The translations under genes were made by a program, and so were the position numbers. From Mycobacterium sherrisii (GTDB taxonomy: Bacteria; Actinomycetota; Actinomycetes; Mycobacteriales; Mycobacteriaceae), in the NCBI RefSeq assembly GCF_002102355.1, contig NZ_LQPT01000033.1, forward strand, positions 34,615 through 98,614: DNA of 64,000 nucleotides. The letters are read 5' to 3'. This document shows positions 2,831-21,176 of the stretch, in pieces (position 1 is the stretch's first letter; each line of letters starts with the position of its first letter). The notes under the pieces are model-generated. The model saw only the letters and a program-made list of their open reading frames with translations. It did not search any database and had not been told where the DNA came from.

Positions 2831-2855
2831 GTTTCGTGATTCGGGTGATGGGTAG
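2831..2855 (+). promoter_or_regulatory. candidate SigF promoter of the hemerythrin gene
   Basis: GTTT at 2831-2834 is followed after 15 bases by GGGTAG at 2850-2855. The mycobacterial SigF consensus, from general knowledge, is GGTTT, 15-17 nt, GGGTA(T/C). Transcription would begin near 2862, about 55 bases before the hemerythrin start. Confidence 0.55.
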
Positions 2856-2917
2856 CCGCTTGCAGGCGCGCGAAACAGTCTGGCGCGCTGCAAGAACGAA
2901 CTTAACGGGAGGACTTC

Positions 2918-3478
2918 ATGGCTCACGCCGCCGTCACGTCACCCACCGATGTGGTCGACTTTCTGTCCAGTCAGCACGAGCAGATCAAATCGTTGTTCAC
3001 CACGACACTTTCGGCGTCCGGGGACGCCCGCGAGAAGGCGTTCGTCGACCTGCGTCGTTTGCTCGCCGTGCACGAAACGGTGGAGGAGGAAATCGTCCAT
3101 CCGCGGGCGAAGCGCAAGATCGCCGACGGAGCCGCCGTGGTCGAGCAGCGGCTGGAAGAGGAGCACGAAGCCAAGGCGGTGCTGCAGAAGCTGGAGAAGC
3201 TCGACGTCGACAGCGCCGAGTTCACCCGAATGCTGACCGAGCTCCGCGACGCCGTGCTCGACCACGCCGAGCATGAGGAAAAGGACGAGTTCACCAGGCT
3301 GGGCCAGGAATTGAGCAGCGACGAGCTGGAGAGTATGGGCCGCGCCGCCAAGCTGGCCGAAGCGATCGCGCCCACCCGGCCACACGCCGGCGTCGAGTCG
3401 CAATTGGCGAACCTCGTCGCGGGACCGTTCGCGGCGATGCTGGATCGAGCCCGCGACGCCATCGTCGGAAAAGGCTGA
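2918..3478 (+). CDS. hemerythrin HHE domain protein
   Basis: A 186-residue all-helical protein with the spacing of a hemerythrin HHE domain: His20, His52-x3-Glu56, His61, His83 and His116/His119, suited to a di-iron site in a four-helix bundle. Such proteins bind O2, NO or peroxide; in mycobacteria they have been linked to oxidative and nitrosative stress. A strong ribosome site (GGGAGG) precedes the ATG. The C-terminal 60 residues beyond the HHE domain have no recognised fold. A SigF-like promoter lies about 65 bases upstream, which fits a stress role. The gene stands alone: udgX follows with its own promoter. Confidence 0.85.
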   Translation: MAHAAVTSPTDVVDFLSSQHEQIKSLFTTTLSASGDAREKAFVDLRRLLAVHETVEEEIVHPRAKRKIADGAAVVEQRLEEEHEAKAVLQKLEKLDVDSAEFTRMLTELRDAVLDHAEHEEKDEFTRLGQELSSDELESMGRAAKLAEAIAPTRPHAGVESQLANLVAGPFAAMLDRARDAIVGKG

Positions 3479-3492
3479 CCAGCGGCTGATTC

Positions 3493-3517
3493 GTTTCGCC
3501 AACGTCGGCAAGGGTAT
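3493..3517 (+). promoter_or_regulatory. candidate SigF promoter of udgX
   Basis: GTTT at 3493-3496, a 15-base spacer and GGGTAT at 3512-3517 form a near-perfect SigF-type promoter. The expected transcript starts around 3524, about 40 bases before udgX. Confidence 0.65.
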
Positions 3518-3562
3518 GCCCGGGAACATGAGGTTCCCGGGCTACTTGCTGTTCGGCCGGCG

Positions 3563-4231
3563 ATGACCGCGACGAAGCCGACCGCCGAACCATTCCTGCC
3601 CGCGCAGCGTTCGCTCCGGTCCCTGCAGACGGCGGCCGAAAAGTGCGAAGGCTGTTCTCTTTTCGAGAACGCGACCCAGACCGTCTTCGGGCATGGCAAG
3701 GTCAAGGCGCCGATCATGCTGATCGGTGAACAACCCGGAGATCAGGAAGACCGGGCCGGGTTGCCGTTCGTGGGTCCCGCAGGGAGATTGCTGGCGAAGG
3801 CACTCGACGATGCCGACATCGATCCTGAGAGCACGTATCAGACCAATGCGGTCAAGCATTTCAAGTTCACCCGCAAGGGCGGCAAACGGCGAATTCACCA
3901 AAAACCCAACCGCACCGAGGTGGTCGCGTGCCGGCCCTGGCTGCTGGCCGAGATCGACGTGATCCACCCGCAGGTAATCGTGTGTCTCGGCGCTACCGCC
4001 GCGCAATCCCTGCTGGGGGCTTCGTTTCGGGTGTCTGCCCACCGAGGTGAGGTGCTGACTCTGGCCGCAGCGGCGCCCGCAACGACCGCGGACGAGGGGC
4101 CGGCCGTGGTGGCGACGGTGCATCCCTCGGCGGTGCTACGGGATCGCAGCGATCGCCGCGACGACGCATACCAGGCCTTCGTGGACGATCTGCGCAGCGC
4201 ACGCTCGGCTCAGCTGCGCTCGGCGAGCTGA
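3563..4231 (+). CDS. udgX: UdgX uracil-DNA cross-linking glycosylase
   Basis: A 222-residue member of the family 4 uracil-DNA glycosylases. Cys28, Cys31, Cys123 and Cys141 are positioned to bind the [4Fe-4S] cluster. Motif I reads GEQPGDQED (residues 55-63) and the C-terminal motif is HPSAVLR. Residues 108-112 read KRRIH, the extra loop that defines UdgX; in the characterised M. smegmatis protein the His of this loop forms a covalent bond with uracil-containing DNA, and here it is His112. The protein should therefore trap rather than simply excise uracil. No clear ribosome site precedes the ATG. A SigF-like promoter upstream suggests stress-phase expression. Most family 4 enzymes lack this loop, so the assignment is firm. 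Confidence 0.93.
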   Translation: MTATKPTAEPFLPAQRSLRSLQTAAEKCEGCSLFENATQTVFGHGKVKAPIMLIGEQPGDQEDRAGLPFVGPAGRLLAKALDDADIDPESTYQTNAVKHFKFTRKGGKRRIHQKPNRTEVVACRPWLLAEIDVIHPQVIVCLGATAAQSLLGASFRVSAHRGEVLTLAAAAPATTADEGPAVVATVHPSAVLRDRSDRRDDAYQAFVDDLRSARSAQLRSAS

Positions 4232-4240
4232 GCCGGCCCG

Positions 4241-6034
4241 TCAACTGTTCTTGTGCGGCAGGAACTCCTGAACCTTGGTTTTCAGCCCCTGCTTGACGAA
4301 TCCCACACGGTCCTCGTCACCGGACAGCACGGCGGTGGCGGTCGCCTTGAACTGATCCCAGGTGGCGTGCGGTGGGATGGGCGGCATGTCGGGATCGGTG
4401 TAGACGTCGAGCACCGTCGGGCGATCGGCCGACAAGGCCTCGCGCCAAGCGCTGGCGAGGTCCTCGGGATCCTTGATGACCATCGCGTTCAGGCCCAGCC
4501 CGGATGCGAAGGCCGCGAAGTCGACATCCGGAAGTACTTGGGACTCGGCGAATTTCGGCGCGCCCTCCATGGCCCGCATCTCCCAGGTGACCTGGTTGAG
4601 GTCGTTGTTGTGCAGGATCGCCACGATCAGACGCGGATCCTCCCACTCCTGCCAGTACCGCTTGATCGTGATCAGTTCGGCCATGCCGTTCATCTGCATG
4701 GCACCGTCTCCGGCGAATGCGATCACGGGTCGTCGCGGGTGAGCGAATTTCGCGCCGATGGCATAGGGGACACCGGGCCCCATCGTCGCGAGGGTGCCCG
4801 ACAACGACCCGCGAATATTGCCGCGGAACTTCAGGTTACGTGCGTACCAGTTAGCAGCGGAGCCGGAATCGGCTGTCACAATCGCGTCATCCGGCAGTTG
4901 CGGCGAAAGCTCGGAGAACAGTCGCAGCGGATTGATCGGGTGAGCGTTGACTTTGGCTTCCTTGTCCATCGTCTCCCACCACCGGGCGACATTCTTCTCG
5001 ATGCCCTCGCGCCACGACCTGTCCGCCTTGCGGCGCAGGTGCGGGATCAGCGCCCGAAGCGCCGTCTTGGCATCGGCGACCACATTGACCTCGTAGGGGA
5101 AACGCATGCCGATGAACCGGCCGTCGACATCGATCTGCACCGCCCGGCACTGCCCGAACTCGGGCAAGAACTGGGTGTAGGGGAAACTGGATCCCACCGT
5201 CAGCAGGGTGTCACAATCACGCATCATCTCGTAACTGGGCCGGGTTCCCAGTAGCCCGATAGAGCCAGTGACCCAAGGTAATTCGTCGGAAAGCACGTCC
5301 TTGCCGAGCAACGCCTTGGCGGCGCCCGCACCGAGCAGGTCCGCGACCTCGGCGACTTCGGCGCTGGCAGCTCGTGCGCCGTTGCCTATCAGCATGGCGA
5401 CCTTTTTCCCGTCGTTGAGCAGCTGGGCCGCCCGGGTGATTGCGGCATCGTCGGGGGAGACGGCCGGGTACTCGATGCCCAAACTGGACGGCACCATCTT
5501 GAAGGCGTGAGTGGGCGGCGAGTACGGCAACTCCTGCACATCGGCGGGAATGATCAACGCAGTCGGGGCTCGCTGCGTCATCGCTACCCGGATGGCGCGA
5601 TCCAGCACGTTGGGCAGTTGCTCTGGGACCGTGACCATTTGGATGTAATCGCTGGCGACGTCTTTGAACAGGCTCATCAGGTCGACCTCCTGCTGATAGG
5701 AGCCGCCCATGGCGCTGCGGTTGGTCTGCCCGACGATGGCCACCACCGGGACGTGGTCGAGTTTGGCGTCGTAGAGTCCGTTGAGCAGGTGGATCGCGCC
5801 GGGGCCAGACGTGCCCACACATACCCCGACCCGCCCGGTGAACTTGGCGTAACCGACCGCTTCGAACGCGCTCATCTCTTCGTGACGTGCCTGAATGAAT
5901 TTCGGTTGATTGTCGGCGCGTCCCCACGCGGCGAGGAGTCCGTTGATGCCGTCGCCCGGATAGCCGAAGACGTGCTCAACGCCCCACGCCCGCAGCCGCT
6001 CCAACAGGTAGTCGCTGACCTCTTGCTTAGACAC
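4241..6034 (-). CDS. thiamine pyrophosphate enzyme, pyruvate oxidase/dehydrogenase-like
   Basis: A 597-residue enzyme with the three-domain layout of the PoxB/acetolactate synthase family. The N-terminal Pyr domain carries the catalytic Glu in RHEEMSAFEAVGYAK (residues 51-65). A central nucleotide-binding-like domain follows. The PP domain has the TPP/Mg motif starting AGDGAMQMNG and ending about 30 residues later at HNN. The family decarboxylates 2-oxoacids; the closest functional guess is a quinone-dependent pyruvate dehydrogenase making acetate. The distinction from other TPP decarboxylases is uncertain. Translation starts at GTG after GAGAGGA. A 16-bp dyad (6056-6071) lies 22 bases upstream. 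The 3' end faces udgX with a 9-base gap. Confidence 0.85.
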   Translation of the reverse strand: MSKQEVSDYLLERLRAWGVEHVFGYPGDGINGLLAAWGRADNQPKFIQARHEEMSAFEAVGYAKFTGRVGVCVGTSGPGAIHLLNGLYDAKLDHVPVVAIVGQTNRSAMGGSYQQEVDLMSLFKDVASDYIQMVTVPEQLPNVLDRAIRVAMTQRAPTALIIPADVQELPYSPPTHAFKMVPSSLGIEYPAVSPDDAAITRAAQLLNDGKKVAMLIGNGARAASAEVAEVADLLGAGAAKALLGKDVLSDELPWVTGSIGLLGTRPSYEMMRDCDTLLTVGSSFPYTQFLPEFGQCRAVQIDVDGRFIGMRFPYEVNVVADAKTALRALIPHLRRKADRSWREGIEKNVARWWETMDKEAKVNAHPINPLRLFSELSPQLPDDAIVTADSGSAANWYARNLKFRGNIRGSLSGTLATMGPGVPYAIGAKFAHPRRPVIAFAGDGAMQMNGMAELITIKRYWQEWEDPRLIVAILHNNDLNQVTWEMRAMEGAPKFAESQVLPDVDFAAFASGLGLNAMVIKDPEDLASAWREALSADRPTVLDVYTDPDMPPIPPHATWDQFKATATAVLSGDEDRVGFVKQGLKTKVQEFLPHKNS

Positions 6035-6055
6035 TCGTCATCCTCTCTCGAACTG

Positions 6056-6071
6056 TCGGGATGAATCCCGA
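6056..6071. promoter_or_regulatory. 16-bp dyad in the leader of the TPP enzyme
   Basis: Perfect 7-bp arms TCGGGAT and ATCCCGA with a 2-base centre, ending 21 bases before the GTG start of the TPP gene. The spacing suits an operator or a small leader hairpin. The regulator is unknown. Confidence 0.4.
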
Positions 6072-6317
6072 ACGCCGTCCTTGGGGCTCCACGGGTTTGA
6101 CGCCCCAAACGGCGAAGGCGGGAAGGCCCGCCGGCCGTGGCCGAGTCCGCGACCGCCGCGGCGGTAACGGGCACGAGCGGGCAGCATCGATACTTCCCAC
6201 GCGGGGGGAGGTACCCCCGCAGATGCCCATTAAGCATGTCGCAAACCTGTGACTCTGCGTAAAAGATCGGTTCGACCCGAACGGCTGGTCCGAGGTCCGC
6301 CCGGCCCTGACGGGAGC

Positions 6318-6343
6318 GGTTTGCCAGGCGGGTCAACGGGTAC
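6318..6343 (+). promoter_or_regulatory. SigF-type promoter, probably leaderless
   Basis: GGTTT at 6318-6322, 15 bases, GGGTAC at 6338-6343 is a full match to the SigF consensus. The ATG of the FMN reductase lies only 10 bases after the -10 element, and no ribosome site fits between, so the mRNA probably begins at or very near the start codon. Confidence 0.7.
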
Positions 6344-6352
6344 GCCGCGCAG

Positions 6353-6988
6353 ATGCCTAGCGGAGGTCCAGCACCCGTCGGCGCGCCGCGTGCGCTGGCC
6401 CTGGTGTGCAGTCTCAAACGCAGTCCGACGCCGTCGAGCAGTGAGCTGCTCGCCGAGCAGGTGCTCGAGCAGATGCGCAATGCCGGGGCGCGCTGCGAGT
6501 CGATCCGGTGCGTCGACTACGCGATAAAACCCGGCGTAGCGGCCGATATGGGGCCCGGTGACCAGTGGCCACAACTGCGGGAAAAGGCGCTTGCCGCCGA
6601 TATTTTGGTGCTGGCGACGCCGGTGTGGCTGGGCCACCTGTCCAGTGTGGCGCAGCGGGTGCTGGAGCGGTTGGACGCCGAGCTGTCCAACACCGACGAC
6701 GCGGGCCGCCCGACCATGGTGGGTAAGGTCGCGGTGGTCGCGGTCGTCGGGAACGAGGACGGCGCGCACAAGGTCACCGCGGACGCGTTCCAGGCGCTCA
6801 ACGACATCGGGTACACGATCTCTGCGCAGGCCAGCACCTACTGGAACGGTGAAGCGATGCAAACCACCGATTACCGAGATCTGGACAAGGTGCCCGACGC
6901 GGTCGCCTCGGCTACCGCTGCCGCCGCACGAAATGCCGTGTACCTGGCCGGAGTGCTGCGCGACGGCACGTATCCACCGTACGAGTGA
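6353..6988 (+). CDS. NADPH-dependent FMN reductase family protein
   Basis: A 211-residue flavodoxin-fold protein. The segment LALVCSLKRSPTPSSSELL (residues 14-32) matches the FMN phosphate-binding loop, and LATPVWLGHLSSVAQRVLE is the second flavin loop of the family. Such proteins reduce FMN, quinones or other small acceptors with NAD(P)H; the physiological substrate here is unknown. The ATG at 6353 sits 10 bases behind a consensus SigF -10 box, suggesting a leaderless transcript. A 59-residue acidic protein gene follows after 13 bases and is probably in the same transcript. Confidence 0.8.
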   Translation: MPSGGPAPVGAPRALALVCSLKRSPTPSSSELLAEQVLEQMRNAGARCESIRCVDYAIKPGVAADMGPGDQWPQLREKALAADILVLATPVWLGHLSSVAQRVLERLDAELSNTDDAGRPTMVGKVAVVAVVGNEDGAHKVTADAFQALNDIGYTISAQASTYWNGEAMQTTDYRDLDKVPDAVASATAAAARNAVYLAGVLRDGTYPPYE

Positions 6989-7001
6989 GGAAGGGGCCAC
7001 G

Positions 7002-7181
7002 ATGACCGGGAAACACCGCGCTAAGGCCGAGAAATCCGAAGAAGACATCGACCCCGATCCCAACGTTGCCGGATCGCGAGCCGGCAGCGACAAGGACGGC
7101 AGCTATGTCGGTCGCGCATCGTCCGATGATGACTTCGGCAGCGGCGAAACCGGTGCCGAAGCGCGCAGCCAGGACGGTTGA
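7002..7181 (+). CDS. small acidic hydrophilic protein
   Basis: A 59-residue protein that is highly charged and disordered-looking, rich in Asp, Glu, Ser and Gly, with no hydrophobic core. It is preceded by a good ribosome site (GAGGAAGGGG) and starts 13 bases after the FMN reductase stop, so it is probably the second gene of that SigF-type transcript. The composition resembles stress-associated hydrophilins, but I do not recognise a family. Confidence 0.6.
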   Translation: MTGKHRAKAEKSEEDIDPDPNVAGSRAGSDKDGSYVGRASSDDDFGSGETGAEARSQDG

Positions 7182-7294
7182 GCAGCGATCAATAGCCTTG
7201 CGGGAGAACGTTTCTCGGAGCAAGAAGGTGCCGCTGGATCCGAGTGCCTACCGTGGGATAACCCGTCGCTCACAGGTGATCAACCCCACCAATT

Positions 7295-7318
7295 GTTTGA
7301 CCAATCGAACCGGGGGAA
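7295..7318 (+). promoter_or_regulatory. weak SigF-like promoter of the CsbD gene
   Basis: GTTT at 7295-7298, 14 bases, then GGGGAA at 7313-7318. Both spacing and -10 box deviate from the consensus, so this is only a candidate. It lies 51 bases before the CsbD-like start. Confidence 0.25.
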
Positions 7319-7368
7319 GCCCTTGAAGATCACCGGAGCAAGAGCAATTAGCGAAAGAGAGGTGTCCC

Positions 7369-7605
7369 ATGGGGGATGACAAGAGCGGACCGCAGGAAGC
7401 AGTGAAGGGCGCCGTCGAGGGCATCAAGGGCAAGGCCAAGGAGTTCGGCGGAACCATCGCCGGCCGCGACGATCTCGTCGAGGAGGGCCAGGCCCAGCAG
7501 GACAAGGCGGACGCCCAGCGCGATGCCGGAAAGAAAGAAGCCGAAGCCGAATCCGCCCGCGCCGGCGCGAAGGCGGCGGAGGAACGGCAGAAGGACGCCC
7601 AGTAG
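7369..7605 (+). CDS. CsbD-like stress protein
   Basis: A 78-residue, almost entirely hydrophilic Ala/Lys/Glu-rich protein. The segment AVKGAVEGIKGKAKEFGGTI followed by a GRDDLVEEG-like turn matches the CsbD family, general stress proteins of unknown mechanism; mycobacterial members have been named microaggregate-binding protein. The C-terminal half is a charged helix that probably forms a coiled coil. AAGAGAGG lies a few bases before the ATG. A strong hairpin follows the stop. Confidence 0.8.
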   Translation: MGDDKSGPQEAVKGAVEGIKGKAKEFGGTIAGRDDLVEEGQAQQDKADAQRDAGKKEAEAESARAGAKAAEERQKDAQ

Positions 7606-7619
7606 TTCGGTACGACGTT

Positions 7620-7654
7620 AGTAGGCCCGGTCCCGTAACGGGACCGGGCCTACT
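7620..7654 (+). terminator. strong hairpin terminator after the CsbD gene
   Basis: A perfect 15-bp stem (7620-7634 with 7640-7654, beginning AGTAGGCCCGGTCCC) encloses the loop GTAAC, starting 15 bases after the stop codon. No long U-run follows, as is common in mycobacteria. Confidence 0.75.
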
Positions 7655-7706
7655 CGGTTGCGGTAGTGCAAAAGTTTTGCGAATGAGGTTTCAAGCCGGA
7701 GCGCGT

Positions 7707-7735
7707 GGTTACCCATCGCGGTGATCCGCGGGTAC
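7707..7735 (+). promoter_or_regulatory. weak SigF-like promoter of the DUF3349 gene
   Basis: GGTTA at 7707-7711 and GGGTAC at 7730-7735 separated by 18 bases. The -10 element is perfect, but the spacer is one or more bases long and the -35 has one mismatch. It lies 27 bases before the ATG at 7763. Confidence 0.3.
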
Positions 7736-7762
7736 CCTGCGGGACGGACGCGAAGGGCCACG

Positions 7763-8038
7763 ATGAGTATTAGCAGTCGCATATCGAGACTCGTGGCTTT
7801 TCTGCGCCTCCGTTACCCAGCCGTCGCGCCGCCGGTCGGTTATGCGCCGCTGCTGGCGCTTTTGCCGCGGCGAATGTCCGATGACGAAATCTCCGCAACC
7901 GCAACCAAACTTCGGATGTTGGCGTGCTCAACGATCGAGCGAATTGACGTCGGTGTCGAAATCACCCGCGCCACCGACGAACTGCCGCTGCCCGATGACG
8001 TTGACCGGGTCTGCCGTCAACTTCTTCCGCTCGAGTGA
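7763..8038 (+). CDS. DUF3349 family protein
   Basis: A 91-residue helical protein resembling the mycobacterial DUF3349 family (Rv0543c type): a basic N-terminal helix, the pattern PPVGYAPLLALLPRRMSDDE and a C-terminal ITRATDELPLPDDVDRV. The function of the family is unknown. The ATG at 7763 was chosen because it follows GAAGGGCC and matches the family start; a more upstream in-frame ATG at 7721 would place the SigF-like -10 element inside the coding region. The 3' end faces the endonuclease-like gene with a 9-base gap. Confidence 0.75.
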   Translation: MSISSRISRLVAFLRLRYPAVAPPVGYAPLLALLPRRMSDDEISATATKLRMLACSTIERIDVGVEITRATDELPLPDDVDRVCRQLLPLE

Positions 8039-8047
8039 CCTGGGCGG

Positions 8048-8812
8048 TCACGGCCGGTCGATGTCGACCACCAGCGGGCGATGATCGGAGATTGGCATCA
8101 GTTCGGACTCGGTGGTGGTGCCCCTGAGGGACGGATCATCGGTGAGGATGTGATCGAGCTGGCGGTCGGGCGCATCGGCGGGGAAGGTTTTGTCCGCGCC
8201 CAGCGCCCGCATGCCCGACCACCGTCGGACCGCCGCAGGCGTCATGTTCAGATCGCCGGTGAGCAGCCGCGGACCCGAAAAGCCCCGCAAGTCATGCACG
8301 AGCCGGCGCAGTTGACGCCGATTCCAGCCCGGGACGAAGGACAGGTGCGTGTTGGCGACGGTCAGCGCGCCCAGCGGCGTGCTCAGCTGCGCGATCACCG
8401 CCGTCCGTGGTTCCTCGTCGACCATCATCACCCTGTTCGGCCCGGGCAGATACATGGGGAATCGGATCGGGATCCGGGGCAGCCGCACCACTTGCCAGCT
8501 GGTTGCCGGGAACCGCGACAGCAGGGCTATTCCGTACGCCGCGGTCCCCGGTTGCTCGTCGCCGGTGGCGGCCATCCAGGTGGCCCCCGGGGTGCCGGAG
8601 ATGGCCGCCACGAACCGTTGTTCCACCGCTCCCATGGCCTCGGCGGCCACCGTGGTGAAATCGGTGCGATTGGATCGCGGCTGGTCGCAATCCACCTCTT
8701 GAAGGGCCAGCACGTCGGGGTCTATCCGTCGCACGCAATCGACCAGGCGCGCCGGTTCGACACCGTCGCCGACGATGCGGCCGTGCAGGATGTTGAAGGT
8801 GGCTAGCCGCAT
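8048..8812 (-). CDS. endonuclease/exonuclease/phosphatase family protein
   Basis: A 254-residue protein of the metal-dependent EEP fold. It shows Asn7 in ATFNILHG, the metal-binding Glu39 in LALQEVD, GDLNM in the second half and the terminal SDHRPL motif. The family includes AP endonucleases, DNase I and sphingomyelinases; there is no signal peptide, so it should act in the cytoplasm. The substrate cannot be decided from sequence alone. It lies 49 bases downstream of the PIG-L deacetylase gene on the same strand, so it may be the last gene of that operon. Confidence 0.82.
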   Translation of the reverse strand: MRLATFNILHGRIVGDGVEPARLVDCVRRIDPDVLALQEVDCDQPRSNRTDFTTVAAEAMGAVEQRFVAAISGTPGATWMAATGDEQPGTAAYGIALLSRFPATSWQVVRLPRIPIRFPMYLPGPNRVMMVDEEPRTAVIAQLSTPLGALTVANTHLSFVPGWNRRQLRRLVHDLRGFSGPRLLTGDLNMTPAAVRRWSGMRALGADKTFPADAPDRQLDHILTDDPSLRGTTTESELMPISDHRPLVVDIDRP

Positions 8813-8861
8813 CAGTTTTATGCTCCGGACAGCCCATCTTGCAGGCCGGCCAGACGGGCGT

Positions 8862-9632: not shown

Positions 9633-9639
9633 CTCGCCC

Positions 9640-10581
9640 TCAGTGCCGATGCCCCGCCAGGCGCCCGAGCGCGGCCAGATCCCGTTCCGCATGGCTCTGC
9701 CGGATGTAGATGCTCAGGTCGGCAACCCGTTGGGCGTGCCGCCCGTCCTGGCACAGGGGCCCCGGTCCCAGCGCGCGGCCGGTACGGGTGATTGCTTCGT
9801 CGGCGGCGTGCTCGACGATGGCGCGGATGCGGCGGGCGAGCAGCTCGGCACTCAGAGACCGGTCGAACGGATCGGCGTCGACCCGACTTGCGGCGTCGAT
9901 CAGCATCGCCTCGCCCGCGGCGAGTGCGGCGTCGACGGCGCCCAGGTGGGCCAGCGAGTAGGCGTCGGCGGATTCGCTTGCCGCACAACGGTACAGCGGC
10001 TCAGCGACCTTGCGTGCTCCACCGAGCCAGCAGGCGGCCACACCAATTGCGCCGTGCCAAAAGCCGGGCCGATTCAGGTAATCACCCGGTTCGCCCACCG
10101 CGACGGCCTGGGCGTTGGTGAATTGCACCGGGCGGGTGTCGCTACCGGCCATGCCGGTGTTCCACCACGTGGTCGGCAACGCCTTGACCGCGGGATCGAC
10201 CAGCGCGACCGCGAACAAGCACCGGCTACCGTCTTCGAGCCGCGCGGTGACCAGGGCGTGCGTGCAGAAACCCGCCCCGGCGCACCAGACCTTGGTGCCG
10301 TTGAGGATGTACGCCCCGTTGATGTCGGTCGCGGTGAGCACCGCCTCCGGCGACTCGGCGGCCCACACGCCCCACAACTGGCCCAATTCGGGCGGCTTGC
10401 CGCCCAATTCGTGCAGAATTGCTACCGCGTCCACATGGGCCTCGGCAATCCGCGCCGCCACGATATCTTCCTCGGCCAACAGTGCCAGCCGTTGCCAACG
10501 TTCCAGCGTGCGTCCCGACGCCGGCAGCGGCAGTTCGAGTCGCCCAGAGTCGAGCCAGTGCTGTACCAGTCCGGCGGTCAC
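9640..10581 (-). CDS. acyl-CoA dehydrogenase-like protein
   Basis: A 313-residue protein with the middle beta-domain and C-terminal helical features of acyl-CoA dehydrogenases, e.g. INGAYILNGTKVWCAGAGFC, GWTS replaced by WNTGMAGSDT, and a C-terminal four-helix region. It is shorter than the usual 380-400 residues because the N-terminal helical domain is reduced. No obvious catalytic Glu was identified, so activity is uncertain. Its GTG start at 10581 overlaps the GT2 stop by four bases (GTGA). The tight linkage to a GT2 and a PIG-L deacetylase argues for a role in making a modified glycoconjugate rather than in beta-oxidation. Confidence 0.75.
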   Translation of the reverse strand: MTAGLVQHWLDSGRLELPLPASGRTLERWQRLALLAEEDIVAARIAEAHVDAVAILHELGGKPPELGQLWGVWAAESPEAVLTATDINGAYILNGTKVWCAGAGFCTHALVTARLEDGSRCLFAVALVDPAVKALPTTWWNTGMAGSDTRPVQFTNAQAVAVGEPGDYLNRPGFWHGAIGVAACWLGGARKVAEPLYRCAASESADAYSLAHLGAVDAALAAGEAMLIDAASRVDADPFDRSLSAELLARRIRAIVEHAADEAITRTGRALGPGPLCQDGRHAQRVADLSIYIRQSHAERDLAALGRLAGHRH

Positions 10582-11219
10582 GCGCAATCACCCGCTGCCG
10601 ATCTGCCCAATGCCGCGAGGTACTGCCCGATTCCCTGGGAGGTGCGCGTGCGGTTGCGTGCCGATCCGATCACCGACAGGTCGGTGTCCCGGTGGATGGA
10701 CAAGCCAGCGGCTTCGAACCGCTCGGCGAGGTCGACGTCTTCGCCCGACGGCATGGTGCGGAACCCGCCGACCCGCCAATAGGCGCGGCCGCTGCAGCCC
10801 ATGTCGGCAATGTGGTCGCACCGGTCGGTGCTGTGCACCGCGCCCAGCACCATGTCGGCACCAACCTCGAGCTGATGGATCAGCCAACCGGGATTTACCC
10901 GCCTGGTCGCATCGACGGTCGCGTACCAGCACCGATCGTCCCCGGACAGGGAACGCCCGTAGCCGAAGCCGACCGCACGCGCGGTACCGCTGTTGCGGGC
11001 GTCGATGGTCACGAAGTGCACGTCCCGCCCGTAGTGTCCGGCCAACCGGGCGCTGTCCTCGTCGGTCGCGTCCAACACCACCACGACCGTCACGGATATC
11101 GGCGTACACAGCGCCGCCGTCAGCACCGCGCGCAGACACGCCGGGAGGTCGACAGTTTGATCGTTAACGGGAACCACCACGACGACCCGGTCGTAGGCGC
11201 GGAACGCACGTGTTGACAT
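10578..11219 (-). CDS. family 2 glycosyltransferase with altered DXD motif
   Basis: A 213-residue GT-A fold protein. The N-terminal VVVVVPVNDQ matches the nucleotide-sugar entry of family 2 glycosyltransferases and RNSGTARAVG is the second nucleotide-binding loop. Where relatives have DADTRV (the metal-binding DXD), this protein reads VDATRRV, so the second Asp is Thr. The acceptor-site GEDVDLAERF is intact. It is the first gene of a cassette with an acyl-CoA dehydrogenase-like protein and a PIG-L deacetylase. It is smaller than typical processive GT2 enzymes and lacks membrane segments. Confidence 0.78.
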   Translation of the reverse strand: MSTRAFRAYDRVVVVVPVNDQTVDLPACLRAVLTAALCTPISVTVVVVLDATDEDSARLAGHYGRDVHFVTIDARNSGTARAVGFGYGRSLSGDDRCWYATVDATRRVNPGWLIHQLEVGADMVLGAVHSTDRCDHIADMGCSGRAYWRVGGFRTMPSGEDVDLAERFEAAGLSIHRDTDLSVIGSARNRTRTSQGIGQYLAALGRSAAGDCA

Positions 11220-11284
11220 GTTGCGTTCGATTGCCCACTCGGGTGCCTTTTAAACAGTTGACAACAGCCGTTCGGGGTTGTTCC

Positions 11285-11310
11285 GGTTGCTCATTCGGTC
11301 CGCCGGGTAT
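11285..11310 (+). promoter_or_regulatory. candidate SigF promoter of the nucleotidyltransferase gene
   Basis: GGTTG at 11285-11289, 15 bases, GGGTAT at 11305-11310. One mismatch in the -35 box, perfect -10. The ATG lies 12 bases after the -10 box, so the transcript would have almost no leader. Confidence 0.5.
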
Positions 11311-11321
11311 GTCTGATCCAC

Positions 11322-11897
11322 ATGGCACCGATCGAGATGGCCACGCAACCGCCCGAGTGTTCGGCGCCGTTGCGGGCGGCGCTGCGTGCGGCGGCGTCTG
11401 CACTCAAGGAGAACGGCCCGCGCTTCGCGTTGGCCGGCAGTTATGCGTTATGGGCTTATGGCGCACCCGAACCCAGCCACGATGTCGATCTCGTCGTAGC
11501 CGAATCCGACGTGGCGCAGGCCGCCGACACCTTGCGGCGTGCCGGATTTGTCATCGAGCATCCGCCCGAGGATTGGCTGTTCAAGGCCCGCAGCGACAAT
11601 GCGCTGGTGGACGTGCTGCACCGGCTCAACGGCGAGCGGGTGGAAGCGGGCACCTTGGACCGTGCCGAGCACCGTGACGTGCTCGCCATAACAATGCCGG
11701 TGCTGCCGCCCACCATGGTGCTCGTACAGAAGCTGCGCTCACTCAACGAACATCACTGCGATTTCGCCAAGTTATTGCCCGCCGTGCGCGCGATTCGCGA
11801 GCACCTGGACTGGGACCACGTCCGGCGACGGACCGCCGACAATGATTACGCGGTCGCGTTTTTGGTGCTCGCCGAACGCCTGAGCCTCACCGATTAG
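11322..11897 (+). CDS. nucleotidyltransferase-fold protein
   Basis: A 191-residue protein with the minimal nucleotidyltransferase signature: Gly39-Ser40 in LAGSYALWAYG followed by the metal-binding pair Asp54/Asp56 in SHDVDLVV. A helical C-terminal region follows. Relatives include antitoxin/toxin-associated nucleotidyltransferases and aminoglycoside-type enzymes. No partner HEPN gene lies alongside, so a toxin-antitoxin role is not supported here. The start at 11322 fits a SigF-type, nearly leaderless transcript; an alternative ATG lies five codons later. Its 3' end overlaps the convergent SAP-like gene by 4 bases. Confidence 0.72.
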   Translation: MAPIEMATQPPECSAPLRAALRAAASALKENGPRFALAGSYALWAYGAPEPSHDVDLVVAESDVAQAADTLRRAGFVIEHPPEDWLFKARSDNALVDVLHRLNGERVEAGTLDRAEHRDVLAITMPVLPPTMVLVQKLRSLNEHHCDFAKLLPAVRAIREHLDWDHVRRRTADNDYAVAFLVLAERLSLTD

Positions 11898-12151
11898 TGA
11901 TTGCGCAACTTGGCGACGAGCTTGTCCTTGGTTAGACCCGAATAGCCGGACATGCCAAGCTCTTTGGCCCGCTTTTTCAATTCCGGGACGGTCCAGTCGC
12001 TGTAGGAACCGGATTTACCGCCTTTGCGCGAAACCGACGACTTGCCGCGGCCGGCCGCGGCGTTGGAGATCCGCGCCGCCTTCTCCTTGGAGTCCCCCTG
12101 CTTGCGCAGGTCCTTGTACAGTTTTTCGTTCTTGATCGACGAATTCGGCAT
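11894..12151 (-). CDS. small basic protein with Rho-N/SAP-like domain
   Basis: An 85-residue Lys/Arg/Ser-rich protein. The C-terminal 33 residues (WTVPELKKRAKELGMSGYSG and after) form the helix-extended loop-helix typical of the Rho N-terminal/SAP-like nucleic acid-binding domain. The N-terminal half is basic and probably disordered. Similar small proteins are common in mycobacteria and may bind DNA or RNA. A strong ribosome site (GGAGGATG) precedes the ATG. It overlaps the nucleotidyltransferase 3' end by 4 bases. Confidence 0.7.
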   Translation of the reverse strand: MPNSSIKNEKLYKDLRKQGDSKEKAARISNAAAGRGKSSVSRKGGKSGSYSDWTVPELKKRAKELGMSGYSGLTKDKLVAKLRNH

Positions 12152-12268
12152 CTGTCATCCTCCTCGCGTGATGAGACCGCTGCCACCGAGTTGCCCGGGC
12201 CGCCCGTCGATAAACGCAGGGCAACCGAATCCGCGCCCACCGCGGTGCAAGCCCATGCCCCGCCGCAG

Positions 12269-12293
12269 GGTTACCCACCCCTGCCGCGGGTAG
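12269..12293 (+). promoter_or_regulatory. possible SigF-type promoter of the Che-like module
   Basis: GGTTA at 12269-12273, 14 bases, GGGTAG at 12288-12293, ending 9 bases before the ATG of the CheB-like gene. The short spacer and a mismatch lower confidence, but the distance to the ATG is close to that of the two other near-leaderless SigF candidates. Confidence 0.35.
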
Positions 12294-12302
12294 TCGGCAA
12301 CG

Positions 12303-13330
12303 ATGACCCGGGCGGCAGGCGACGACATCGGTGGCGTGGTGGCCATCGGCGCGTCGGCCGGGGGTGTCGAAGCACTGTCCAAGCTGGCCGGCGGCTTGTC
12401 GCCCGATTTGCCCTATGCGTTTCTCATGACGTTGCACATGCCCGCGGGTTCGCCGAGCATTTTGGCGCGCATCATCGACCGCAGCGGACCGTTGCCGGCG
12501 GTCGCTGCTGAAAATGGCGGGGCGCTGAAGCCCGCCCATATTTTCGTCGCGCGCCCGGATCACCATTTGCTGGTGCCGATCGCCGCATCGTGCTATCGCA
12601 AGGGCCGACCGAGAACGGGCACCGGCCCGCGATCAACGCATTGTTCCGTTCGGTTGCGGTGGCGTTCGGACCCCGCGCCGTGGGAGTGCTCCTCTCCGGT
12701 GTGCTCGACGACGGCGTATTGGGGCTCAAGGCGATTCGCGCACGCGGCGGCGTCACGATTGGGCAATCCCTCGACGACGCACTTTTTCCGGCATTGCCGG
12801 GGAAAGCCCATGACGCCGGTGTGCTGGATCGACAGGCGGCGGCGGCCGACATCGGCCAAGTATTGAAAGAGCTCTCGGCGCGCGAGATCAAGGAGCCGGT
12901 CATGGAGCCTGACAGCCGGATGGAACTGGAGAACCGCATCGCCATGACGGCGCGCTTCTCGGCGAGTTTCGACTCCCAGGAACTCGGTCCGGCCTCGGGC
13001 TACACCTGCCCCGACTGCAATGGATCATTGGCGGCGATCGGCGACGGCCACTTCCGCTGCCGCGTCGGTCACGCCTGGACGGCCGATGCGTTGCTGTCCG
13101 CGCGCGACCGGGAAGTGGAGGGAGCGCTGTGGGTCGCGCTGCGCAGTCTGCAGGAAAAGGCGAAGCTGGCTCGGCAACTGGCCGATACGGTGGGTCCAGG
13201 TCCGCTCCACCGGCGCTACAGCGCGCAGGCCGACGAGACCGAACGGGCGCTGCACGTGCTCGGTGAGCGGCTCACTTCCATGACCGACCCGCAAGACGGG
13301 GCACCCGAGGCGGGTGGCCCCAGTGGCTGA
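12303..13330 (+). pseudogene. CheB-like methylesterase, interrupted by a one-base frameshift
   Basis: Two frames together encode a CheB methylesterase domain. The first frame gives residues 1-90, with the catalytic Ser18 in IGASAGGVEAL and His45 in LMTLHMP. At about 12573-12575 one base is missing: restoring one G after GTG yields a continuation reading ADRRIVLSQGPTENG in the other frame. That frame then runs to 13330 with the catalytic Asp in SGVLDDGVLGLK. A C-terminal zinc-ribbon follows, with CPDC and CRVGHAW, plus a helical tail. There is no receiver domain. The break is either a real inactivating mutation or a sequencing error. Downstream genes overlap or follow closely, so the module is one operon. 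Confidence 0.8.
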
Positions 13331-14072
13331 GTCGGTTGTGCTGCTCGGCGCGGACCGCCACCAGGACGTCGTGGTGCTGACGGCCACGGGCGTCCTGGAC
13401 GGTACGACCTATCGCACCCTGCGCGACGGAGTGATCAAGGCGGCACTCGAAGAGCCGCGAGCGGTGATCGTGGATGTCAACGATTTGGCGGTGCCCTTCG
13501 CCTCGGCGTATGTGGTGTTCACCAGCGCGCGTTTGCACGTCAGCACCTGGCCGGACGTGCCGATCCTGTTGGTGTGTGAGGACCGCCAGTCGCGGCGCGC
13601 GATCACCGCGGGCGGCGTCGCGCGGTATGTGCCCGTGTTCCCCGACCGCGACTCGGCGGTGAACGCCGCACTGCATCAAAAGCTGGACGGCCGGCAGCGC
13701 GCGCGAACACCGCTGCCCGCCCGGCCGGTCAGCATCGGACTGGCCCGGGCCCTGATCGACAAGTGGTTGACCGCCTGGGGGCACCGCGATCTGATTCCCG
13801 TCGCCGGCACGGTCGCGACGGTCTTCGTCGAAAACGTCCTCGGCCACACCGACGGCGCGCCGGTGCTGATCGCCGAGAGTTACCGAGACACCATTACCGT
13901 CGCCGTAGAGGACGGCAGCCCAGTGCCGGCGGAACGGCGCGAAACCACCCATGGTGCCGAAATGCTGTCGGGTTTATCCATGGTGTCCGCCCTGTGCCGC
14001 GCCTGGGGCAGCACCCCGACGCCGTCCGGCAAGACGGTATGGGCGCTGGTCGGCCCCGAAAACCGGCTTTAA
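13314..14072 (+). CDS. STAS - HATPase fusion, SigF-type partner-switch regulator
   Basis: A 252-residue protein with two parts. Residues 1-115 resemble a STAS domain of anti-sigma factor antagonists (VVVLTATGVLDGTTYRTLRD and the IVDVNDLAVPF strand). Residues 130-250 resemble an RsbW-like ATPase: N-box VATVFVENVLGH and a G-box region THGAEMLSGLSMVSALCRAW. Antagonist and kinase activities of a partner-switching system would thus be joined in one chain. The start is a GTG at 13314 inside the end of the CheB-like gene, with an alternative GTG at 13323. It sits between a CheB-like and a CheR-like gene, suggesting that methylation or ligand sensing feeds into a sigma factor switch. That link is inference. 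Confidence 0.75.
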   Translation: MAPVAESVVLLGADRHQDVVVLTATGVLDGTTYRTLRDGVIKAALEEPRAVIVDVNDLAVPFASAYVVFTSARLHVSTWPDVPILLVCEDRQSRRAITAGGVARYVPVFPDRDSAVNAALHQKLDGRQRARTPLPARPVSIGLARALIDKWLTAWGHRDLIPVAGTVATVFVENVLGHTDGAPVLIAESYRDTITVAVEDGSPVPAERRETTHGAEMLSGLSMVSALCRAWGSTPTPSGKTVWALVGPENRL

Positions 14073-14131
14073 TCCCGCGAGTATTGTGCAAGTCCTCCAC
14101 ACTTGACCGGCCGACCTTCGACGGGATCTCC

Positions 14132-15970
14132 ATGGACGCCACCACCGACGAGTCCTTCGAAGCATTGTTGCGGTACATGCGAGATTCGCGCGGGTTCGAC
14201 TTCACCGGCCACAAGCGCACTTCGCTGATCCGGCCGGTCCGGCATCGGATGGACCAGGCCGGATACCGCTCGTACGAGGAATATCTCGACGTGCTGCAGG
14301 CAAGTTCGGACGAATTCGCGTCGTTGTTCAACACCATCCTGATCAACGTCACGGCCTTTTTTCGCGACGAAGAGGCCTGGGACTTCGTCCGCGACGAGGT
14401 CATCCCGCGGATGCTGGCCGAACGCGGCCCCACCGACCCGATTCGGGTCTGGAGCGCCGGCTGCGCCTCCGGGCAGGAGGCCTACACGCTGGCCATGCTG
14501 CTCGCCGAGGCGCTCGGGCCCGAGGCATTTCGGCAGCGGGTCAAGATCTACGCGACCGATATCGACGAGGAGGCGCTCGCCGAGGCGCGAGCTGCCAGCT
14601 ACGACGCCAGGGCCGTCGAATCGGTGCCGCCGGATATCCTGTCCCGCTATTTCGAACAAGTCAACGGCCGCTACATCTTTCACAAAGATCTGCGTCGCGC
14701 GGTGATCTTCGGCCGCAACGATTTGGTCAAAGACGCACCGATCTCGCGGGTCGACTTCCTCGTCTGTCGCAATACGCTGATGTACCTCAATGCGGAGACG
14801 CAACGAAATGTGTTGGGCCGCCTGCATTTCGCGCTTGGTCCGCAGGGCACGTTGTTTCTCGGCCACGCCGAGATGCTGCTGAGTCATAGCGATCGGTTCA
14901 CTGCGCTGAACCTGAAGAACCGCATCTTCCGCAAGGCGGTCGGCACCCACGGCGGGGCGGAGCGCTACGACCCGGCAGCCTTCTATGACCGCACCGACGA
15001 GTCGTCGGGGTTGACCACGGTGCGCGAGTTGGCTTTTCGCGCCAGCCCGGTGGCACAGATCGTGGTCACCGGGGAAGACACCGTGGCAATGATCAACCAG
15101 CAAGCCGAGAGCATCTTCGGCCTGTCGGCCCGCGATATCGGTCGGCTGCTCAGGGATTTGGAGGTGTCCTACCGAGCGGTGGAGCTGCGCGCCTATCTCG
15201 AGCAGGCCAAGGTGGAGCGCCGCTCGGCGCGGATCCCCGATGTCAAATGGCAACGGCCGGGCGCGGAAACGGTGTGGTTCGAAATCCACGTCAACCCCTT
15301 GGTCGACGCCGAGAACGGATTGCTGGGGGTGTCGATCGTCTTCTTCGACGTCAGCGCCACGCGCGCGCTGCTGGACAAGGTCGTCCAGACCAACCGCCAG
15401 CTCGAAGCGGCTTACGAGGAGTTGCAGTCCACCAACGAAGAACTCGAGACCACCAATGAGGAGTTGCAATCCACGGTGGAGGAACTCGAGACCACTAACG
15501 AGGAGCTGCAGTCCACCAACGAAGAACTCGAGACGATGAACGAGGAGCTGCAGTCCACTAACGACGAATTGCACACCATCAACGACACGTTGCGCGAGCG
15601 CAGTCTGGAACTCGACGGTGCGACAACCTTCCTGGATTCGCTGATCAATTCGGTGCAGATGGGCATGGTCGTGGTCGACCGGGAGATGAAAGTGGTGGTC
15701 TGGAATCGGGGTTGCGAGGACCTGTGGGGGCTGCGGGCCGACGAGATCGCCGGCACCAAACTGACGTCGCTGGATATCGGATTGCCCCTCGATACGGTGC
15801 TGCCGTTGATCGGCAACGCCTTTGTGGATCCGGAGAGCTCGGGCGAAACGCTGGTGGACGCGGTCAACCGGAGGGGACGTCCGGCGCGGGTGCGGGTCAC
15901 GTGCACGTCGTTTCGGTCGAACGACGGTGCGGCCGGTGGAGCGCTGTTGCTGATGGAGGTTTTGGGCTAG
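14132..15970 (+). CDS. CheR-type methyltransferase with PAS and coiled-coil domains
   Basis: A 612-residue protein. Residues 1-270 form a CheR domain: an N-terminal helical region, the SAM-binding motif VWSAGCASGQEAY near 105-120, and FLVCRNTLMYL. A PAS domain spans roughly 290-400. Residues 405-495 form a long coiled coil built on four 14-residue repeats of the EELQSTNEELETTN type (429-484). A second PAS domain ends the protein. This is the CheR-PAS architecture often fused to CheB in other bacteria; here CheB-like genes flank it instead. No flagellar or receptor genes lie nearby. The ATG at 14132 is 59 bases after the STAS-HATPase gene. The last 4 bases overlap the convergent CheB2 gene. 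Confidence 0.85.
   Translation: MDATTDESFEALLRYMRDSRGFDFTGHKRTSLIRPVRHRMDQAGYRSYEEYLDVLQASSDEFASLFNTILINVTAFFRDEEAWDFVRDEVIPRMLAERGPTDPIRVWSAGCASGQEAYTLAMLLAEALGPEAFRQRVKIYATDIDEEALAEARAASYDARAVESVPPDILSRYFEQVNGRYIFHKDLRRAVIFGRNDLVKDAPISRVDFLVCRNTLMYLNAETQRNVLGRLHFALGPQGTLFLGHAEMLLSHSDRFTALNLKNRIFRKAVGTHGGAERYDPAAFYDRTDESSGLTTVRELAFRASPVAQIVVTGEDTVAMINQQAESIFGLSARDIGRLLRDLEVSYRAVELRAYLEQAKVERRSARIPDVKWQRPGAETVWFEIHVNPLVDAENGLLGVSIVFFDVSATRALLDKVVQTNRQLEAAYEELQSTNEELETTNEELQSTVEELETTNEELQSTNEELETMNEELQSTNDELHTINDTLRERSLELDGATTFLDSLINSVQMGMVVVDREMKVVVWNRGCEDLWGLRADEIAGTKLTSLDIGLPLDTVLPLIGNAFVDPESSGETLVDAVNRRGRPARVRVTCTSFRSNDGAAGGALLLMEVLG
15416..15583 (+). repeat. four tandem 42-bp coding repeats (coiled coil)
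   Basis: Four 42-base units (15416, 15458, 15500, 15542) begin with GAGGAG(T/C)TGCA and encode 14-residue heptad pairs within the CheR-PAS protein. The units differ at several wobble positions, so the array is diverged and selected for coiled-coil sequence. Confidence 0.85.
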
Positions 15971-16845
15971 TCACGCAGTTGCGCGACCGCCCGCCTGGCG
16001 GCCTGCTGCGCTTGTTGGGCACGCCGCACGGATTCTTCGGCGCGGCGTCGTGCCATCGCAACCGTTTGGGCCGTGGCGCCGATGCCGGCCGCCAGATCCT
16101 GGCGTCGGCGCCGGAGTTCGTCTGCCCGCAGCCGCGCGGCTTCGGCGCGGGCGGCCGCGTCGTCGAGGGCTCGCGTCGATGGCTCCCGGAACTGATCGTC
16201 GGGCGGGGCGGCACCCGTCTGCGCCGGCGGTGTGGGCGCGCTGGCGCGCTCGGGCGCGGGGGGTATCGGGGCGCCGCGGGCAATGGCGGCAAGCACGCCA
16301 CCGATGTCATGCACCGGCAAGATGAGGTCCGCACCGGCTTCGGCCGCGGCCATCGGCATCGAGGGGTAGTCCGCGGTCCCGGGGCTTTGGGCGATGACGA
16401 TGGCCCCGGCCCGCTTCATCGCCCTGACTCCCTCGGCCCCGTCTCGGCCGGACCCGGACAACACGACGGCCAGTGCGCGCGGCCCGTACGAGCCGGCAAC
16501 GGACACCAGCAACACGTCGAATCGACGCTCCGAGATCGACCCCATTCTGCGCAGTCGACAAGTCCGGTCTGCGACCAGCTCCATGTGCATGTCCGGCGGA
16601 CAGACGGTCACGGGCCCCGGTTCGATGGTTTGGCGGTCGCGTGCCCAGCACACCGGGTGCGCGGTGGACCGTTGCAAGATCATGGGCAGCACGCTCGATT
16701 GCCCGCCGAGGTGCTGTTGCACGACGATGGCGGCACCGAACTCCGTAGGCAAATCGCCTAGGACCGCTAACAACGCCTCTAACCCACCGGCCGAGGCCAT
16801 CAGGACCACCAACTCGACCCCGGGTCGCTGGGTGTCGGTTGCCAT
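15967..16845 (-). CDS. CheB-like methylesterase with Ala/Arg-rich helical tail
   Basis: A 292-residue protein whose first 195 residues form an intact CheB methylesterase domain: Ser18 in MASAGGLEAL, His45 in VVQQHLGG and Asp135 in SGSGRDGAEGV. There is no receiver domain. The last 90 residues are Ala/Arg/Glu-rich and predicted to form a long helix or coiled coil. It is convergent with the CheR-PAS gene (4-base overlap) and could supply the methylesterase activity lost in the frameshifted CheB at 12303-13330. Its substrate in a bacterium without obvious chemoreceptors is unknown. Confidence 0.82.
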   Translation of the reverse strand: MATDTQRPGVELVVLMASAGGLEALLAVLGDLPTEFGAAIVVQQHLGGQSSVLPMILQRSTAHPVCWARDRQTIEPGPVTVCPPDMHMELVADRTCRLRRMGSISERRFDVLLVSVAGSYGPRALAVVLSGSGRDGAEGVRAMKRAGAIVIAQSPGTADYPSMPMAAAEAGADLILPVHDIGGVLAAIARGAPIPPAPERASAPTPPAQTGAAPPDDQFREPSTRALDDAAARAEAARLRADELRRRRQDLAAGIGATAQTVAMARRRAEESVRRAQQAQQAARRAVAQLRD

Positions 16846-16945
16846 GCGTCCAGTGTCCTCCGCCCGCCCTGATCCGGCCTCGGGAACTTTCGCACTATCC
16901 AGCCGGCGAAGGACCCGGACAGCCAGCGAAGCCGCAACGGCGCCG

Positions 16946-16972
16946 CGTTTGGCAGTCGGCCACGCCGGGTAC
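16946..16972 (+). promoter_or_regulatory. candidate SigF promoter of the GT4 gene
   Basis: CGTTT at 16946-16950, 16 bases, GGGTAC at 16967-16972, giving a leader of about 70 bases before the GTG at 17050. Confidence 0.55.
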
Positions 16973-21089: not shown

Positions 21090-21176
21090 GGTCGTCGTCT
21101 CCCAGTCTTGTTGGCTGATCGGGAGTTACCCGCCCGCGGGGGGATTCACACGGATGGATTGTCCGTCGCAACGCAA

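Follow-up and report, generated by a model that had tools for sequence, protein, structure and literature searches.

A cluster of conserved SigF-type promoter boxes around a STAS-ATPase/CheB/CheR gene group in Mycobacterium sherrisii

Genes and boxes at the locus

The sequence analysed here is a 64,000 nucleotide stretch of the Mycobacterium sherrisii genome (5.56 Mb in 128 contigs), referred to as the window, which corresponds to positions 34615-98614 of contig NZ_LQPT01000033.1 (C33). Its first 21 kb carry genes for a hemerythrin, a UdgX-family protein, a flavin mononucleotide (FMN) reductase and others, preceded in many cases by a box resembling the promoters of the stress sigma factor SigF, and among them lies a group made up of cheB1, a STAS-ATPase fusion gene and cheR (Table 1). 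As the cluster extends past the left end of the window, C33 was examined from its first base; positions marked C33 are those of the contig, while all others are those of the window. The promoter cluster is larger and better conserved than was first noted in a preliminary description of this DNA. Judged from sequence, the region from about 20 to 56 kb of C33 (window 1-21151 and some 14 kb upstream) is very probably a SigF regulon island, as far as the promoters and the island itself are concerned.

Boxes were called exact when they matched GTTT-N15-17-GGGTA, with a relaxed set allowing up to one mismatch and the reversed pattern as the control. A box counted as placed when a potential start followed it on its own strand within 1-120 bp; with genes called by a simple gene caller, potential starts as far as 60 bp inside the called gene were accepted, by the same rule for the island and the control DNA. 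The control DNA consisted of 20 stretches of 20 kb picked at round coordinates.

The preliminary description listed five strong and three weaker boxes, each pointing at its downstream gene. All five strong boxes stand, four of them as exact matches (C33:37445, 38107, 40933, and 51561, which are window 2831 for hemerythrin, 3493 for udgX, 6319 for the FMN reductase, and 16947 for GT4) and the fifth as the GTTG-N15-GGGTA variant at 11286. The orientation toward the named genes was also correct. Two of the weaker boxes, at 7295 and 12269, hold as well; the third, placed at 7707 for the DUF3349 gene, was rejected in favour of 7688-7711, which is what the relatives conserve. The extent of 15 kb given to the cluster does not hold, since the island covers about 36 kb and begins outside the window. 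Boxes additional to those first listed are present on the minus strand at 2853, 6212, 11232, 12192, and 21127, and upstream of the window at C33:20269, 20306, 21307, 23676, 24945, and 33725. The protein encoded at 10578..11219 is provisionally called GT2.

Table 1. Boxes and genes in the first 21 kb of the window, with the matches found in related genomes
Feature	Position	Strand	Evidence
Lipoprotein-like protein	1731..2795	-	No Pfam family at E 0.01; "lipoprotein" is a reading of the N-terminus
SigF-type promoter GTTT-N15-GGGTA, hemerythrin gene	2831..2854	+	Exact; exact in 5/5 relatives
Divergent SigF-like box GTTT-N15-GGCTA, lipoprotein-like gene	2853..2876	-	≤1 mismatch in 11/22 relatives' rows (three genomes twice); weak
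Hemerythrin-domain protein	2918..3478	+	PF01814
SigF-type promoter GTTT-N15-GGGTA, udgX	3493..3516	+	Exact; 1/4 in footprint loci
UdgX-family uracil-DNA binding protein	3563..4231	+	TIGR03914, 243 bits vs cut-off 190
Thiamine pyrophosphate-requiring (TPP) enzyme	4241..6034	-	NF006129
GCTT-N15-GGGTA box, 177 bp ahead of TPP-enzyme gene	6212..6235	-	Weak: ≤1 mismatch in 1/8 relatives
SigF-type promoter GTTT-N15-GGGTA, FMN reductase gene	6319..6342	+	Exact; exact in 1/1 scorable ortholog
NADPH-dependent FMN reductase family protein	6353..6988	+	PF03358
SigF-type promoter GTTT-N15-GGGAA, CsbD-like gene	7295..7318	+	≤1 mismatch in 15/15 relatives
CsbD-like protein	7369..7605	+	PF05532, under cut-off (25.0 vs 40 bits)
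SigF-like box GTTT-N15-GGTTA, DUF3349 gene	7688..7711	+	≤1 mismatch in 10/13 relatives
DUF3349 protein	7763..8038	+	PF11829
Protein called GT2	10578..11219	-	No Pfam match
SigF-like box GTTT-N15-GGGCA, gene 10578-11219	11232..11255	-	≤1 mismatch in 6/6 relatives
SigF-type promoter GTTG-N15-GGGTA, nucleotidyltransferase gene	11286..11309	+	≤1 mismatch in 16/16 relatives; identity to window: -35 0.98, -10 1.00
Nucleotidyltransferase-like protein	11322..11897	+	PF14907
DUF7218 protein	11894..12151	-	PF23855
SigF-like box GTTT-N15-GGGCA, DUF7218 gene	12192..12215	-	≤1 mismatch in 9/15 relatives
SigF-type promoter GGTT-N15-GGGTA, cheB1-STAS/ATPase-cheR	12269..12292	+	≤1 mismatch in 18/18 relatives
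cheB1 methylesterase gene, split over two frames	12303..13330	+	PF01339 halves in two frames
STAS and RsbW-like ATPase fusion	13323..14072	+	
CheR methyltransferase with PAS domains	14132..15970	+	PF01739, PF00989
Second CheB-type methylesterase (CheB2)	15967..16845	-	PF01339; own box 0/13 relatives
SigF-type promoter GTTT-N16-GGGTA, GT4 gene	16947..16971	+	Exact; exact in 19/21 relatives
Family 4 glycosyltransferase (GT4)	17050..18237	+	PF13579/PF13439
RsfB-like STAS protein (STAS2)	19520..20029	+	PF01740; 8ih8 RsfB E 1.1e-7; box ≤1 mismatch in 1/11 relatives
DNA topoisomerase IB	20034..21089	-	PF01028, PF21338
SigF-type promoter GTGT-N16-GGGTA, topoisomerase IB gene	21127..21151	-	≤1 mismatch in 14/15 relatives, 4 exact

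Density and placement of the boxes

There are 59 exact boxes in the genome, against 27 matches to the reversed pattern, and seven of the 59 are on one strand within C33:23676-51585 (28 kb, 0.5% of the genome), four of these being inside the window. Seven boxes in such a span were reached in one of 20,000 random placements, and in none of 5,000 in a repeat, which is more clustering than chance would give. The exact boxes outside the window are 5' of a zinc-type alcohol dehydrogenase (C33:23676), a CBM48/alpha-amylase domain protein called GlgX-like (C33:24945), and a small protein at C33:33786 that has no Pfam family (box at C33:33725).

With up to one mismatch there are 22 sites in C33:20-56 kb, of which 16 are placed, three more are intergenic, and three are intragenic. 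The three further intergenic sites are 6212, which is too far from its gene, and 7688 and 12269, whose genes were missed by the caller; the intragenic sites at C33:31119, 32675, and 32761 were set aside as not promoter-placed. The 19 intergenic boxes are distributed along the whole region on both strands. In the control stretches there are 78 such sites, 19 of them placed (17 intergenic), and 375 called genes, giving 19 placed boxes for 375 genes as against 16 for 38 in the island (Fisher 1.3e-9, a value that is too small, as the span was fixed after the sites were known). The remainder of C33 has nine sites, one of them placed.

Eight of the 19 intergenic boxes (window 6319, 11232, 11286, and 12269; C33:20269, 21307, 24945, and 33725) end 10-13 bp ahead of a possible start codon, so that leaderless messages would be expected from them.

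The reversed pattern itself matches often, as would be seen if the boxes were chance matches in a G+C-rich genome; indeed, a looser pattern, GTT-N16-18-GGGTA, gives 181 matches where its reversed control gives 193. A single box match therefore means little, and the case depends on clustering, placement, and conservation. These contradict an origin by chance, the conservation being specific to the boxes while the spacers drift, as does the strong clustering in four other genomes, which were chosen for their sigF linkage and not for their boxes. Chance as the source of the boxes is thus extremely improbable; the single weak boxes at 6212 and 2853 could nonetheless be chance matches.

Conservation in related mycobacteria

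Footprints were sought in 22 loci with a relative of the STAS-ATPase gene, which were compared with the genes of the window. The box counts exclude ortholog rows that were less than 40% identical, whose alignment began beyond residue 30, or that had less than 150 bp of upstream sequence. When the 130 bp upstream were aligned for nine promoters, the identity to the window was 0.77-1.00 in the -35 element and 0.75-1.00 in the -10 element, with 0.33-0.53 in the spacer and 0.29-0.51 in the rest. Among the genes taken as negatives, four have no box with up to one mismatch 5' of them (EEP 0/16, PIG-L 0/13, CheR 0/19, CheB2 0/13), and in the other three boxes are nearly absent (ACAD 1/16, AraC 1/14, STAS2 1/11). 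Shuffled upstream DNA yields a box in 0-7% of cases. The counts on the opposite strand are high for CsbD (12/15), the nucleotidyltransferase (12/16), CheB1 (17/18), GT2 (6/6), DUF7218 (9/15), and CheB2 (13/13), because, in our explanation, several of these genes have their upstream region in common with a boxed gene facing the other way, as in the pairs CheB2/GT4, GT2/nucleotidyltransferase, and DUF7218/CheB1.

A match to udgX was obtained in 103 genomes, and the best 30 of these were used (29 relatives and M. sherrisii itself). The gene has its own box, with up to one mismatch, in 7 of the 29 relatives, and in 15 others it has none but is directly behind a hemerythrin gene with an exact box. 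Where hemerythrin is directly upstream and the DNA is readable, its promoter is exact in 19/19 udgX loci, a set that overlaps with the 5/5 of Table 1. UdgX is therefore likely, on this comparison, to be a gene of the SigF regulon (22/29 relatives). Counting against this, neither arrangement is present in 7/29, five of which have hemerythrin about 1 kb upstream with its promoter beyond the stretch that was read. A literature search found no publication joining UdgX and SigF in mycobacteria. In one locus (L080, G103:C530), where no hemerythrin was matched, udgX is preceded at 125 bp by an exact box; it looks as though the hemerythrin promoter had stayed behind after the loss of its gene.

Promoter variants and sigma factors

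Microarrays of an M. smegmatis sigF mutant gave nearly the same box variants as are found in the window, including GTTG-N15-GGGTA for sigF-dependent genes (PMC4694148, Table 1). A run of that table, MSMEG_1766-1804, includes sigF and also a type I topoisomerase, MSMEG_1784, with GTGT-N16-GGGTA, which is the same element as the box at 21127; in M. sherrisii, by contrast, the cluster and sigF are on different contigs. The table also contains the hemerythrins MSMEG_2415 and MSMEG_6212, an arginine decarboxylase, and an S-(hydroxymethyl)glutathione dehydrogenase. The GGTTA variant at 7688 has no counterpart among the entries compared, and GGCTA occurs among them only with N16. The main text of the same paper makes no mention of chemotaxis, uracil, CsbD, or "methyltransferase CheR", and many of the entries are only "hypothetical".

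Two genes of M. sherrisii, at C29:28749 and C84:32659, encode SigF-type sigma factors that exceed the TIGR02980 cut-off, and neither is on C33. The gene on C29 is immediately preceded by rsbW and seems to be followed by a STAS gene, and is at least roughly 45 kb from the island, while the 3.7 kb locus on C84 has no rsbW-like neighbour of the sigma gene.

Some boxes depart from GTTT in the -35 element. The DUF1360 gene upstream of the window (C33:20306) has a box with up to one mismatch in 23/29 relatives (from 30 of 34 matching genomes, 98 having been searched), and this is mostly GATTG...GGGTA, with two GGTT and one GATTT. This -35 element differs from GTTT and may represent another promoter dialect. 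Roughly where 6212 is, 5' of the TPP enzyme, 5/8 relatives have GAATAA...GGGTA. The existence of two proteins over the cut-off, together with these variants before DUF1360 and the TPP enzyme, would fit a situation in which the promoters are real but are read mainly by the second SigF-type factor, that of C84, or are split between the two, with GTTT and GATTG/GAATAA as the dialects. SigF of M. smegmatis, however, already goes with many -35 variants in the tabulated data (PMC4694148), and no dialect is assignable to either factor from the present comparison. A main role for the second factor, or such a division, is rather unlikely.

Linkage to sigF in other Mycobacterium genomes

In at least six other genomes (G022, G069, G072, G073, G101, and G130), selected because sigF is near the STAS-ATPase gene, the pair rsbW-sigF is found together with 10-18 of the C33 families (tblastn matches above 40% identity) in 28-45 kb containing 6-11 exact boxes. 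The families near sigF, not all of them in each genome, are Hsp20, the TPP enzyme, UdgX, PAS-ANTAR, CheB1, the STAS-ATPase, CheR, GAF-ANTAR, GT4, hemerythrin, OKR decarboxylase, the two reverse genes of window 1375-2795, the small protein of C33:33786, DUF1360, the alcohol dehydrogenase, CsbD, and DUF7218. A gene that we presume to be molybdopterin-like is also among them. The gene order differs from that of the window, with the STAS-ATPase gene 7-27 kb from sigF. The linkage of the island families to sigF in relatives is real; that it is ancestral and was lost in the lineage of M. sherrisii is what we would infer from it.

All exact boxes were counted in four of the six genomes (G022, G073, G101, and G130), using spans drawn by eye round the dense part that are wider than the 28-45 kb above. 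The spans holding sigF contain 15/34, 16/34, 19/42, and 16/39 exact boxes, respectively, which is 41-47% of the boxes in 43-82 kb, or 1-2% of the genome, and 26- to 49-fold over an even spread; none of 5,000 random placements reaches any of the four counts. The totals for the reversed pattern in these genomes are 23, 8, 15, and 12. In a seventh genome (G089), which has a smaller cluster with two exact boxes, about 19 kb separate rsbW-sigF from the closest of the matched genes.

The STAS-ATPase fusion and the CheB/CheR genes

The preliminary description proposed that the region has its own input module for SigF, consisting of a STAS-HATPase fusion and a STAS protein at 19520. That the protein is a STAS-HATPase fusion is confirmed as a matter of fold: in the predicted model the STAS half comes structurally closest to 4qtp and RsfB (8ih8), which are mycobacterial anti-anti-sigma factors, and the C-terminal half has a fold like the RsbW domain of Rv1364c (3ke6) and B. 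subtilis RsbW, so that the protein has an RsfB-type STAS domain and, by fold, an RsbW-type GHKL ATPase domain. By sequence the STAS protein at 19520 does resemble RsfB, but a conserved box ahead of it is lacking. N171 and H175 of the ATPase N-box are kept in 23/23 fusion sequences, with the usual catalytic Glu replaced according to our own alignment. The conserved box at 12269 is followed by what appears to be an operon of the fusion gene with orphan genes for CheB and CheR-PAS; where no cheB1 is matched, the box is about 145-190 bp ahead of the STAS-ATPase gene itself (L021, L023, L026; G073). Neither a methyl-accepting chemotaxis protein (MCP) nor CheW gave a match at E 0.001 across the genome (128 contigs, rated 100% complete), CheA not having been searched for. 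Among the matches listed in the literature search, no description of the CheB/CheR/STAS-ATPase group was found. A paralogue of the STAS-ATPase, 45% identical, is encoded at G000:C19:114002-114715 (L049).

Known systems share parts of this arrangement. With the SigF partner switch (RsbW1/UsfX, RsfA, RsfB, RsbW2, and RsbW3, as far as set out in PMC7693655 and PMC10950880) the fusion has in common an RsfB-like STAS domain, an RsbW-like fold, and the existence of a sigF-dependent regulator, RsbW3. Unlike in that switch, here a single protein contains both domains, the position aligned to the RsfB site has no conserved Ser, and genes for CheB and CheR lie beside it. Rv1364c of M. tuberculosis (PAS-PP2C-RsbW-STAS) also combines an RsbW-like with a STAS domain in a single chain, and the C-terminal half has one of its best structural matches in 3ke6, but the fusion has the reverse domain order and no phosphatase or PAS domain. 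The CheB/CheR pair of chemotaxis is of the same catalytic families, while here MCP and CheW gave no match and CheR carries PAS domains.

Interpretation

That this is a SigF stress island, as proposed in the preliminary description, is strongly supported by box density, placement, footprints, and the relatives with the same families round rsbW-sigF. The best explanation, which as a whole is probable, is that the island comprises about 17-19 short transcription units of stress genes, all with a promoter of their own that would be read by a SigF-type sigma factor, and that the gene set has presumably been kept together by selection. Stress would free SigF from the anti-sigma factor RsbW, and SigF would then switch on hemerythrin, UdgX, the FMN reductase, CsbD, the glycosyltransferase, topoisomerase IB, and others. 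One SigF-type promoter would drive the apparent operon cheB1-(STAS-RsbW)-cheR, from which the RsfB-like and RsbW-like halves of the fusion may bind or titrate a SigF partner, providing feedback, while CheR-PAS and CheB may tune this feedback, or another target, by methylation.

There is a precedent for such feedback in the behaviour of RsbW3 (MSMEG_1787), an RsbW homologue that is sigF-dependent (PMC4694148, Table 1), binds RsbW1, and on overproduction raises the activity of a SigF reporter (PMC7693655). The input module is physically present and its reading is anatomically sound; its action on SigF is a reasonable inference. The feedback part of the explanation, in which the fusion acts on a SigF partner, is nearly an even matter, falling slightly on the doubtful side.

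The competing possibility is that the SigF cluster is a true one and that the STAS-ATPase, CheB, and CheR are outputs directed at some unrelated partner rather than feeding into SigF. The replaced catalytic Glu would be in keeping with this, even though N171 and H175 are kept, as would the absence of matches to MCP and CheW, the lack of matched CheB1 and CheR in two of the six sigF-linked islands, and the absence of a box with up to one mismatch in the 12 kb surrounding the C19 paralogue. Against it are the structural likeness of the STAS half to 4qtp and RsfB, and the position of its gene 7-27 kb from sigF in all six islands. A role purely as output is a serious possibility, if a somewhat less than even one.

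Several observations weigh against the explanation of a SigF island with its own feedback module. As two SigF-type factors are present, "SigF" here denotes a class, and the GATT boxes at C33:20269 and 20306 have no counterpart among the entries compared from the M. smegmatis table (PMC4694148). Within the span EEP, PIG-L, ACAD, CheB2, AraC, and STAS2 have no box. The relatives are not independent, so that the counts are of sequences and not events, and the upstream alignments behind the column identities may be pulled toward the boxes. The six sigF-linked genomes were selected for the proximity they display, some of the tblastn matches are perhaps to paralogues, and CheB1 and CheR are matched in only four of the six. 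In the fusion, the predicted model has a pLDDT of 53-61 in residues 201-249. PF13581 is silent on the C-terminal half at E 0.001, HATPase_c reaches E 0.08 at best, in 3/23 fusion relatives, and hhalign of this half against RsbW, RsbT-like, and C28 proteins is not significant (E 0.03-0.6), so that its RsbW likeness is settled by fold only. Residue 60, which is aligned to the phospho-serine of RsfB, varies, with S/T at residue 61 in 23/23, and STAS2 of the window has Ala at the aligned position (in an alignment with six relatives only, one other having been excluded for an internal stop and the rest for coverage below 80%). Finally, cheB1 is split here and is in one frame in the 18/18 relatives scored, which would mean that the gene was damaged recently or was misassembled.

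The gene list is tied to the general stress sigma factor by comparative evidence that goes beyond the array of one species, UdgX and the STAS-RsbW/CheB/CheR group are added to the candidate SigF-linked genes, and some mycobacteria have more than 40% of their consensus SigF sites in 1-2% of the chromosome. The question of which signals enter the SigF partner switch becomes testable with a handful of gene removals. It is unlikely, but conceivable, that mycobacteria possess a consolidated SigF super-locus, with more than 40% of the consensus sites round sigF in some species, in which SigF-made STAS-RsbW and orphan CheR-PAS/CheB would form a methylation-tuned feedback input without a chemoreceptor, methylation replacing serine phosphorylation or being added to it.

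The combination of STAS domains with a GHKL-type ATPase, as in the fusion, is also the logic of the stressosome (RsbR-RsbS-RsbT). A separate stressosome-like set is present in the same genome at C82:44000-58000 (L051). It consists of two STAS proteins, one of them weakly matching RsbRD_N (under the cut-off), together with an RsbT-like ATPase and a SpoIIE phosphatase; nearby are two exact SigF boxes and what is by eye an RsfB-like fragment.

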